Assembly: GCA_930633525.1 (NCBI GenBank)
Contig: CAKNFP010000001.1
Coordinates: 1,218,001 to 1,282,000, forward strand
Direction: 5' to 3'
Length of the DNA: 64,000 bases
Source: Hyphomicrobiales bacterium
GTDB taxonomy: Bacteria; Pseudomonadota; Alphaproteobacteria; Rhizobiales; Beijerinckiaceae
A program made the translations under genes and the position numbers. Shown piece after piece: positions 10,515 to 64,000 of the stretch. How positions within the stretch are numbered: the first letter of the stretch is position 1; each line of letters starts with the position of its first letter. The notes beneath the pieces are model-generated. The model did not search any database. It saw only the letters and a list, made by a program, of their open reading frames with translations, and was not told where the DNA came from.

Positions 10515-10548
10515 CTTCCTGGCTGTTTTGAGTAGCTTGCAGCCCGCA

Positions 10549-10717
10549 GCAGCGGGAGAGACTCGGCTTTCGGGCCGAGCGCCGAAGGAGCAACCGCCCC
10601 GGAATCTCTCAGGCAAAAGGACCGCTGCCGCGCGACGACATCTGGAAAGAGAGGCCCGGAGCATTTCGCTTCGTGCATCCGCCGACGGGATAACGCTCTC
10701 AGGCAAAGAAACAGATG
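10549..10717 (+). ncRNA. tandem glycine riboswitch (gcvT motif) upstream of gcvP
   Basis: Two glycine aptamers in series. Aptamer I covers 10549-10628: P1 arms GCAGCGG (10549-10555) and CCGCTGC (10622-10628), enclosing GGGAGAGAC, GCCGAAGGAGCAA and CTCTCAGGCAAAAGGAC. Aptamer II covers 10639-10717: P1 arms CATCTG (10639-10644) and CAGATG (10712-10717), enclosing GGAAAGAGAG, GCCGACGGGATAA and CTCTCAGGCAAAG. The linker is 10 bases, in keeping with cooperative tandem glycine switches. In known cases glycine binding turns on glycine-cleavage genes; gcvP follows here, which fits. Both aptamer cores are intact. Confidence 0.95.
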
Positions 10718-61473: not shown

Positions 61474-61829
61474 GGCCGACGAGCCTGCCCAGCTTGATTG
61501 GCAGCGTCGCGCATGGCTGAGCAAGGCCCCTCAGCCATGGCCCTCGCTCTGTCCCGTCGCCTCCGACATGGCCACGGAATAATAGGGTTGGCTGCGTGTC
61601 AGAACTCCAGCCATGATTGATGAGGTCTCGATTGCAGGCCTGCTTCCTGGGTTGTCTCAGGGAGTCTGAGCCTTATACGGCGCCATCCGTCGCGCTAGGT
61701 CAGCGATCCGTTTTGAATCATGGGGATGCGCTCGCCGGGAATATCGCTATGCTCTGCATCGCACGGGCTAGGCATTCTGCCTAGCCGCATAGCCGGCGCG
61801 CGCGCCGCCGGCACATGTCAGGAGACTCA
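61474..61829. other. leader and promoter region of rpsU
   Basis: 356 bases without a gene. Notable content: GGCTAGGCA/TGCCTAGCC hairpin (61766-61786, 3-base loop) 44 bases upstream of the rpsU start, and a CCGGCGCGCGCGCCGCCGG-like GC palindrome just after it. Confidence 0.5.
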
Positions 61830-62087
61830 TTGCAAGTCCTAGTACGCGAGAACAATATCGATCAGGCCCTTCGTGCCCTGAAAAGAAAGATGCAACGCGA
61901 GGGTATTTTTCGCGAGATGAAGGCCCGTCGGGCCTATGAGAAGCCTTCAGAGAAGCGAACCCGAGAGAAGGCGGAAGCCATTCGGCGGAGCCGGAAAGCC
62001 GCTCGAAAGCAGGCGCAGCGTGAAGGCCTACTGCCGGCGCCGAAGAAAAAAGTAATGGATCCTCGCCGGCAAGCCAGGCCGGCCTAA
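61830..62087 (+). CDS. rpsU: 30S ribosomal protein S21
   Basis: A small basic protein of the 30S platform, involved in initiation. It matches S21 throughout: [42 protein letters not shown], then a long basic tail. The TTG at 61830 is proposed as start because AGGAG (61820-61824) lies 5 bases upstream and translation then begins exactly at the family N-terminus MQVLVREN (85 residues). The in-frame ATG 61815 would overlap the ribosome site and add five residues. A hairpin sits in the leader. Confidence 0.93.
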
Positions 62088-62145
62088 CGCAAGTCGCAGA
62101 GAAGGCGCGCTCCATGCGTGTGCCGACGTAGGGCCGCCTTGAGCT

Positions 62146-62391
62146 CTACGTTCCTGGCGATACCCGCTTGGAGCGACGCTTTGCGGTTGCCGTTACCTTC
62201 TCGGGGGCCGCTTTGGCGGCTGCGTTTTCCTTCGCCTTCCTCAGCGCCCTCAAACGTGCGGTCCTCGCAAAAACTTCGTCTTGTGTGGCCCGATGATCAG
62301 CCCACGCTTTGGAAGCCTCGGCTTCAGCGTCCGCCTTTTTTCGAGCGTTTGCGGCTTTCCTCAGCGCCTGATCGTCGGAAGTGTCTTCCAT
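62146..62391 (-). CDS. small charged protein of unknown function
   Basis: An 81-residue, Ala/Lys/Arg/Glu-rich protein, probably mostly helical (EDTSDDQALRKAANARKKADAEAE split over the N-terminus) with a basic tail (TATAKRRSKRVS). ATG 62389-62391 is chosen since GGAGGA lies 6 bases upstream; an ATG 27 bases earlier lacks this. No domain is recognised. It is on the same strand as, and downstream of, the cold-shock gene, convergent with rpsU. Confidence 0.5.
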   Translation of the reverse strand: MEDTSDDQALRKAANARKKADAEAEASKAWADHRATQDEVFARTARLRALRKAKENAAAKAAPEKVTATAKRRSKRVSPGT

Positions 62392-62549
62392 GATGGCCTC
62401 CTCCAGCTCTTGCGACATGATGGCTGCGGTCCGAGCGAGCGAACCACCAAACCGGCCTTATGCGAACAAAAAAGGGCCGGGCAAGCCCGACCCTGCTTCA
62501 GATTTTTCGCCCTGGCCAAATGAAGGAAATCATTGGCTGGGTCGCGTCT

Positions 62550-62759
62550 TTACACAGCCTGGAGATTTTCCGCTGCAACCTTGCCCCTGCGAGGGTCGGT
62601 GACTGCCTCGAAGCTCACCTTCTGGCCTTCGGTGAGCGTACGCATGCCCGCGCGCTCAAGAGCGGTGATGTGCACGAAGATATCCGGGCCGCCGTTGTCC
62701 GGCTGAATGAAACCAAAGCCTTTGTCGATGTTGAAAAATTTTACGGTGCCGACGGTCAT
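62550..62759 (-). CDS. cold-shock domain protein (CspA family)
   Basis: A 69-residue OB-fold nucleic-acid-binding protein. RNP1 appears as KGFGFIQPD and RNP2 as DIFVHITAL; the C-terminus is [22 protein letters not shown]. It is a CspA-like RNA chaperone of alphaproteobacterial type. ATG 62757-62759 with GGAG 6 bases upstream gives the canonical N-terminus [10 protein letters not shown]; the longer open frame up to 62930 is upstream leader. Such genes usually have long 5' leaders, and about 450 bases of gene-free DNA lie upstream. Confidence 0.95.
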
Positions 62760-63210
62760 AGCGAACTCCATGTCGCATGCATAAAGATACGCGCGGACAC
62801 CTCGCCCGCACGTTTGTTGCATCGATATTGATGAGAAGATCGCCGGAAGCGCCATTCGCGCAAAAACAAAGTTCGGCAACAAGATCGATAAGTCTCTGGT
62901 ATCACCTAATGGCGTCCGAAGCCAGCGCAAGCTTGTGCGACGCTCTCCAGAGCCTCTTCGCGGACGGTGCCCGGAAGGGGACGGAGAGGGCGTAGAGGGC
63001 TGTGCGTATCAAATTGCACGCCGCTATCTGTCGCCTACGAACGCAGCCACGTTCATGAATCGATCCGCGGTGAAGCAGCTTATCTCGAACGCGGCCTGCG
63101 CGCGGAGAGTCGGGCTATAGGCGGATCGGAGCATGGGGCCGGAAAGCGCAGGACAGGTGCAATTTGCACTCAGTTTACTGCCTAAATTCCAGCTAAGTCA
63201 TTGAAATTGA
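62760..63210. other. cold-shock gene leader and gene-free region up to the tRNA fragment
   Basis: About 450 bases without a convincing gene. It includes the presumptive long leader of the csp gene and a GTGCAA T TTGCAC dyad at about 63158-63170. The chromosomal side of the integration site ends at 63211. Confidence 0.45.
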
Positions 63211-63262
63211 TGGTGGGTGCGACAGGGATTGAACCTGTGACCCCTGCCGTGTGAAGGCAGTG
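63211..63262 (-). pseudogene. 3' fragment of tRNA-Val(CAC): attachment-site half of an integrated element
   Basis: Read on the minus strand, 52 bases give an intact anticodon arm (CTGCC-TTCACAC-GGCAG, anticodon CAC), variable loop, T arm (CACAGGTTCAATCCCTGTC-like, stem ACAGG/CCTGT) and acceptor 3' strand CGCACCC plus ACCA. The D arm and the 5' acceptor strand (expected GGGTGCG) are absent; upstream sequence is unrelated. This is what is left at one end when an element integrates into the 3' half of a tRNA gene. The tyrosine integrase gene is 111 bases away. Confidence 0.8.
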
Positions 63263-63372
63263 TATTGCGCTGTATAGCTTGCGTTCTATAGCATGTCAAC
63301 GCTATCCGCCACAGCTACGTTCTTATAATGTTCGCGTGAAACTGTGGCAAACTGTGGCGCCACAGCTTCGAA

Positions 63373-64000
63373 TTACCTTCTTCCTGGACCCGACAAAGCC
63401 TTGGAGGCGGTTGTTTGGAAATCTGGATGGTGGTGACCGTATACGCGCTCGAACATGGCAGCTGTCATCCCGAGATACCCTGCGGCCTCCCATACCTCGA
63501 CGCCTCGCTGAGCGAGCCACGTTCCGCATGTATGCCTTAGGATATGGGGGACAAATTCCTTCCCGAGCCCGGCGTCATCACGTACGCCCTCCCATCCGGT
63601 ACGCACCTTGCTGGCTATGGGCACGCCGCCATGGTGGATGACATGTGTGATCCCGCCTCCGCCCTCCAGCCTCATCGCGCTGTCGATCCTGTCCCACCTT
63701 CGTAGATGCGCAAGCAGCCGTTGCTGCAGACGGACAGGCGGCCTACGCTTTTTTGTCTCGCTTTCTTCCGCGCCTCGACGGTGCATCACGCCGCGCTGCA
63801 GATCAATCCAGCCTGAGCTTGCGGACGGCCCCCATGTCAGGGACGTCATCGCCGAATGCCGCGTTCCTGTGTAAAGCCCAATCAGGATGAACCGAGCGAT
63901 ATGGGCCCTGTTCGCGCGAGCGCTTTTCCCTCGACGATAGATCGTCCCGGTCTTGTCCCGATAGAATCCGAGCGCTGCAGCCAGAAGTTTCGCAGCTTGA
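63373..64000 (-). CDS. int: tyrosine recombinase/integrase, C-terminal part (runs off right edge)
   Basis: At least 209 residues of a phage-type integrase; the N-terminus lies beyond base 64000. The catalytic set is visible: Arg in LYTGTRHSAM, His-x-x-Arg in FVPHILRHTCGTWLAQRG, and the nucleophile Tyr in AAMFERVYGHHHPDF. The C-terminus is complete. Orientation is toward the tRNA-Val fragment, whose sequence would be the core attachment site. The element it belongs to must extend to the right; nothing of its cargo is visible. Confidence 0.92.
   Translation of the reverse strand, partial: QAAKLLAAALGFYRDKTGTIYRRGKSARANRAHIARFILIGLYTGTRHSAMTSLTWGPSASSGWIDLQRGVMHRRGAEESETKKRRPPVRLQQRLLAHLRRWDRIDSAMRLEGGGGITHVIHHGGVPIASKVRTGWEGVRDDAGLGKEFVPHILRHTCGTWLAQRGVEVWEAAGYLGMTAAMFERVYGHHHPDFQTTASKALSGPGRR

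Follow-up and report, generated by a model that had tools for sequence, protein, structure and literature searches.

The 58 bases at positions 63205-63262 very probably (about 97%) form the left attachment site of a temperate, podovirus-like prophage of 60.8 kb, integrated in a gene for tRNA-Val(CAC). The window, that is, the whole stretch of 64,000 nucleotides that was analysed, corresponds to C1:1218001-1282000 of the source genome (G000, 7.16 Mb in 6 contigs). A window coordinate therefore equals the C1 coordinate minus 1218000, and DNA beyond position 64000 was read from the adjoining genome sequence. The integration event itself is an ordinary, textbook one. The cargo is more interesting, for a virion lineage that is rare in this order and mainly for a lone abiF RNA. 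The features around the junction are the following.

61477..63204, no strand: chromosomal DNA left of the prophage, variable between strains
62550-62759, minus strand: small cold-shock-like gene, named from its sequence
63205..63262, no strand: probable left attachment site, a 58-base direct repeat with an identical copy at C1:1341969-1342026
63211..63262, minus strand: displaced 52-base 3' fragment of tRNA-Val(CAC), read from the sequence; the complete gene stands elsewhere, at C1:1341975-1342049, minus strand
63263..63372, no strand: 110 bases between the tRNA fragment and the integrase, the phage side of the probable attachment site
63373..64000, minus strand: part of a tyrosine integrase gene that runs past the window end and whose 3' end faces the fragment; the full gene (401 aa) is at C1:1281373-1282578

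An earlier note on this DNA had proposed a 52-base 3' fragment of tRNA-Val(CAC) at 63211-63262, and this was borne out by reading the sequence. On the minus strand the fragment comprises the anticodon arm (CAC), the variable loop, the T arm, the 3' acceptor strand and the CCA of tRNA-Val. ARAGORN detected no complete tRNA in the whole window, as it is expected for a fragment. The integrase does read toward the fragment as claimed, at a distance of 110 bases (63263-63372) instead of 111. The search to the right that the note had suggested located a second copy, which ends a complete tRNA-Val(CAC) gene (C1:1341975-1342049, minus strand; Rfam 68 bits) 60,764 bases away. A full tRNA-Val(CAC) had been predicted for the far end, and the predicted start of the element at about 63262, running right, is in good agreement with the position of this copy and of the complete gene. 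The repeat had been expected to span 52 bases; the exact repeat is six bases longer (58, at 63205-63262). A tRNA scrap and an adjoining integrase, read by eye, had thus foretold a junction 60 kb away.

Both copies of the repeat are identical (58/58 bases) and the sequences flanking each copy are dissimilar. An 87-base query (E <= 0.001) found just three places in the 7.16 Mb genome, namely its own position, the far copy, where 58 bases match at 100%, and one 85% match, identified as tRNA-Val(GAC). This indicates that the repeat is not due to chance. The GC content was 59.2% for the insert and 63.6% for the window.

The genus sample comprised four genomes, the source genome and three relatives (G001, G002 and G003), and the site was compared using a query that joins both outer flanks together with pairwise BLAST. 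The comparison with related genomes, also proposed in the earlier note, gave an empty site in two of the three relatives. G001 carries a complete tRNA-Val(CAC) without insert and with collinear flanks, and no integrase match was found in it. G002 likewise carries the complete gene without insert, its right flank being 87% identical and its left flank 91% identical leftward from window position 61476. The third relative, G003, is occupied: the same 52-base fragment is followed by an integrase with 91% identity, and after 43.7 kb comes a complete tRNA-Val(CAC). Fragment and integrase, whose presence in all relatives without inserted DNA had been named as a refutation, occur together in this one relative of three, and there with a 43.7 kb insert. 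The first bases beyond the fragment on the integrase side are common to G000 and G003 and unlike those of the empty sites in G001 and G002, which points to phage DNA.

The DNA left of 63211 had been taken for core chromosome. This holds as far as position 61476, where synteny with G002 is good, and fails for the last 1.7 kb, which is strain-variable. About 0.5 kb is found in its place in G002 and 13.8 kb in G003; G001 is without the last 11 kb of the left flank and has about 0.1 kb there instead. The cold-shock-like part of the 1.7 kb stretch has an 87% match on another replicon of G002. The extra 13.8 kb in G003 was considered as a second element and set aside; in BLAST, none of its called genes matched a gene of the G000 region. 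Further left, a glycine riboswitch was observed at window positions 10543-10634 (plus strand, 68.1 bits).

In the proposed mechanism, the tyrosine integrase would have recombined a phage site holding the 3' part of the tRNA with the chromosomal tRNA gene, the crossover presumably falling somewhere within the 58 identical bases. The tRNA would have been rebuilt with the phage copy, and the original 3' end would have been displaced to the other side, where it is found today. The insert displays what is expected of a prophage integrated in a tRNA gene: it is bounded by direct repeats, one of which lies in a complete tRNA gene, two of three relatives have an empty site, and recombinase and virion genes are found inside. 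The location of the integrase at the end of the insert away from the complete tRNA was counted against this reading.

A set of 81 genes was predicted in the insert with a home-made caller; 30 of them were searched in PHROGs and 25 in Pfam. The bulk of the cargo, which the earlier note had thought possibly the most novel DNA near the window, consists of ordinary phage genes. The early and recombination genes include the integrase, SSB, a YqaJ/RecE exonuclease, an Erf annealing protein, RusA and a DnaB helicase, together with a DnaT-like protein whose match is weak and below the Pfam cut-off. The virion genes encode terminase, a portal of the SU10 type (E 1.1e-187), scaffold, major capsid protein, tail fibres, and structural and ejection proteins. 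A transglycosylase, a P63C-domain protein, an exonuclease, an Ant antirepressor and an Arc-like repressor were also found. The Arc-like repressor gene is opposite to and adjoins the Ant antirepressor gene (C1:1332572-1333491), a pair that resembles the immI region of phage P22.

The element at the occupied site of G003 (IMG/VR 2860216311_000004) is a prophage from the same genus and in the same tRNA. It is 91% identical in the integrase, 98% in Erf, 95% in DnaB and 96% in the right-end exonuclease, but it measures 43.7 kb and its tail-type genes are distant. When the G003 element was searched by tblastn, no homologue of the DnaT-like, terminase, portal, scaffold and capsid proteins of the G000 prophage was found. 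The head genes were assessed by tblastn, since a phrog_2 profile search missed the known G000 terminase and so is not evidence; the same applies to a portal search of G001-G003 and three viral records, which gave no match in a set holding no positive genome. About 340 bases separate the DnaB gene of G003 from a tail-tube-type gene. Among 10 G003 genes searched, one encodes a protein with a match (E 1.8e-36) to a PHROG annotated as major head protein. This suggests that the G003 element may hold head genes of another kind and argues against simple loss.

The present state of the prophage has to be considered in view of an insertion sequence.

C1:1308026-1309419: IS256-family element, 20/25 end bases matching, with a 9-base target repeat

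This element sits between the terminase and portal genes and, read by eye, apparently splits a small gene, so that the prophage may be defective. A dead prophage, incapable of excision or of virion production, would be compatible with the prophage reading, and we regard it as quite conceivable, at somewhat less than an even chance. The IS256 element with its 9-base target repeat, apparently within a small gene, speaks for it, as does the G003 relative without homologues of the five proteins named above. On the other hand, no interruption is seen in the integrase, the attachment sites or the main virion genes, and their order is that of a phage.

The virion genes were compared with those of Sinorhizobium phage phiM5 (MF074189), which the excerpted source describes as a temperate podovirus related to LUZ24 (PMC10386132). 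Twelve of the 81 called genes match phiM5 in the same order, and the prophage, as known from its genes, shares with it the succession of terminase, portal, scaffold, capsid, tail tube A, structural and ejection genes. A larger number (16/81) match the uncultured spring virus MW202711, of which 36 of the 39.7 kb were searched, with one gene out of order. The nearest portals among 50,697 phage records were those of uncultured spring viruses (48% identity) and phiM5 (43%), and the nearest capsid protein was that of phiM5 (45%). A portal tree with 15 rows placed the prophage with phiM5, MJing1 and two spring viruses; the fork value of 91/91 supports the group and not the order within it. In contrast, the terminase is phiM5-like over its C-terminal part alone (34%). 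Its best matches, at about 50%, belong to Pseudoalteromonas and Vibrio phages, for which reason it seems to have a separate history.

Outside the virion block, no gene of the prophage matches phiM5 (E 1e-3), and phiM5 is absent from the 14 phage records matched by the prophage integrase. The sizes differ as well, 44 kb for phiM5 compared with 60.8 kb. Judged by its predicted genes, the prophage combines a phiM5-like virion module with lysogeny and replication genes unlike those of phiM5. This virion lineage is rare in the order. A portal match was obtained in 15 of 397 sampled genomes (G000 included), and outside G000 the best long match reached 35% identity, short pieces attaining up to 39%. 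No relatives were found when the prophage portal was searched against genome contigs and viral contigs.

The head, tail and ejection genes, collinear with those of a cultured phage, also bear on the view of the insert as an integrative conjugative element, or as a non-phage genomic island with a phage-like integrase. An integrase beside a tRNA scrap is an island signature too, and 60.8 kb would fit such an element. Given the collinear virion genes and the lack of any conjugation gene among those searched in PHROGs and Pfam (general family searches), this view is considered very improbable. Even less credible is an old tRNA relic unrelated to the adjoining integrase: such scraps are frequent in genomes, but the copies are identical at 58/58 bases, two relatives have empty sites, and the occupied G003 site shows this fragment again, together with the phage-side bases and the integrase.

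The integrase of the prophage was recognized by Pfam Phage_integrase (E 9.6e-9) and phrog_1 (E 8.5e-31). It belongs to the same family, over nearly the whole length, as the integrases of Ochrobactrum phage POI1126 (38%), Rhizobium phage 16-3 (36%) and similar temperate phages. Matches were present in 99 of 397 genomes of the family. Fifteen integrase loci were checked, including that of G000, and nine had a tRNA gene or fragment in the flank: a Val(CAC) fragment in two cases, Met in five, a Met-like fragment (by pattern only) in one and Val(TAC) in one. No tRNA was found in the flank of the other six, which include two viral contigs, one of them truncated at the integrase. A search with a two-row integrase alignment retrieved three viral contigs, one being the G003 prophage itself, and gave no match against genome contigs. 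A second, related integrase (39-40%) was observed beside tRNA-Met in G000, G002 and G003 (C1:3053384-3054559, locus L033, and loci L031 and L032). It possibly marks another element common to the genus.

Three further features of the two prophages were recorded.

C1:1312046-1312119 (L005:15046-15119), plus strand: tRNA-Gln(TTG), 62.1 bits, wholly within the portal ORF, on the same strand and near its 3' end
C1:1331688-1331954 (L006:17691-17954), minus strand: Cas2-like protein of the G000 prophage
L037:3547-3831, minus strand: Cas2-like protein of the G003 prophage

A tRNA gene in the sense strand of the portal gene would mean that one stretch codes for both a tRNA and a protein. ARAGORN was applied to 14 related phage records, four of them with a whole portal gene, and to 9 portal loci of the order, and detected no tRNA within the portal gene in any. 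The Cas2-like proteins share 47% identity and each stands alone. The surrounding small genes are arranged differently in the two prophages, and a DUF1508 gene lies nearby. With Cas2 profiles, the G003 copy scored above the Pfam and TIGR01573 cut-offs; the G000 copy reached 23.7 bits against a Pfam cut-off of 23.8 and had no NCBIfam match. No Cas1 match was obtained in any of the four genomes of the genus, the same search being positive in 9 of 14 control genomes. Relatives of the Cas2-like proteins were present in 5 of 149 genomes of the family (G000 and G003 included) and in 24 phage records, all of Staphylococcus. A PDB search with the pair gave no useful match.

The lone RNA lies beyond the window, between a tRNA-Met and the terminase gene, in a stretch with short ORFs alone.

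C1:1305230-1305266 (L005:8230-8266), plus strand: abiF RNA (RF03085), Rfam 52.5 bits, gathering score 37

The AbiF protein, a relative of the ancestor of Cas13, has a size of about 300 aa. No gene of this size was found beside the RNA, the longest ORF from tRNA-Met to terminase having 92 aa. Of the AbiF toxin-antitoxin module, the RNA motif is present and the adjoining AbiF (Abi_2) gene is absent.

Viral contigs were scanned with a 15-base abiF core, which gave at least 120 stretches; a second pattern added 4, and 124 loci were analysed. The core was accompanied by the stem in 106 of the 124 loci, compared with 1863 of 20000 random positions passing the same test. On this basis, the possibility that the core matches are mostly chance was rejected. 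By context, the 106 stem-bearing loci group into 57 clusters of up to 33 members. A tRNA was located within 300 bases in 40 of them, on the same strand in 40/40, while random positions in the same loci had a tRNA on either strand in 724 of 5000 cases. In 34 of the 106 the tRNA was within 20 bases. Since these loci fall in 9 of the 57 clusters, the link to tRNAs, although strong, is largely a matter of a few lineages. In 27 of the 34, the motif has no tRNA ahead of it within the sequence examined. Rfam confirmed abiF in three of the four second-pattern loci and in at least 7 of 20 tRNA-adjacent loci. A terminator-like T run follows the stem in 25 of the 106 loci, one of these 25 being tRNA-adjacent.

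The neighbourhood of the motif was examined through 135 complete ORFs of at least 200 aa within 1.5 kb, found in 81 of the 106 loci, which were searched with Pfam and PADLOC. At most one match to Abi_2/AbiF was obtained among them in this search, run without a positive control, and neither Abi_2 nor AbiF is among the families matched by two or more neighbour ORFs.

According to the excerpted report (PMC12373285), the AbiF toxin of Clostridioides difficile is bound by an RNA with two abiF motifs (RCd22), which neutralises it both in cis and in trans. The prophage RNA has the same conserved hairpin as the RCd22/AbiF pair described there, but one motif instead of two, and no AbiF-sized gene. A lone abiF sRNA has been noted in cyanophage S-CREM1, and the excerpted account assigns it no role (PMC9964418). 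Phage phiTE is described, in the part of the source consulted, as evading ToxIN through RNA mimicry (PMC3475682). No report of an abiF RNA in viral tRNA arrays was encountered among the literature matches listed, which came from broad searches with subscription papers outside their scope.

A tentative explanation, which we consider possible though doubtful, is that phages, this prophage included, carry a toxin-less abiF RNA as a decoy that would keep the host AbiF off during infection; in some lineages it would be a member of a tRNA array, usually the first. One motif may not suffice for this, RCd22 having two, and in some phages the hairpin may serve for termination or for processing. If the decoy explanation is correct, counter-defence by means of RNA would be widespread in phages. 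The pseudo-ToxI RNA of phiTE would be a comparable case, the decoy differing from it in being fixed in many viral lineages, and an abiF RNA in a tRNA array would be processed together with the tRNAs. Host AbiF would then be a common phage target.

Repeated units were also observed around the abiF RNA of the prophage. In the segment L005:7653-8376 an 18-base start like GTTAGAGTTCAGTGCGGC occurs five times, alongside stem-closed units. By eye, six units within L005:7660-8376 are tRNA-like, and in folds a stem of at least 7 bases closes five of these six. None of the six is called a tRNA by Rfam, and the resemblance is no more than a hint. One unit folds far better than its shuffled versions (z -3.1), the others having z values from -1.0 to -2.1.
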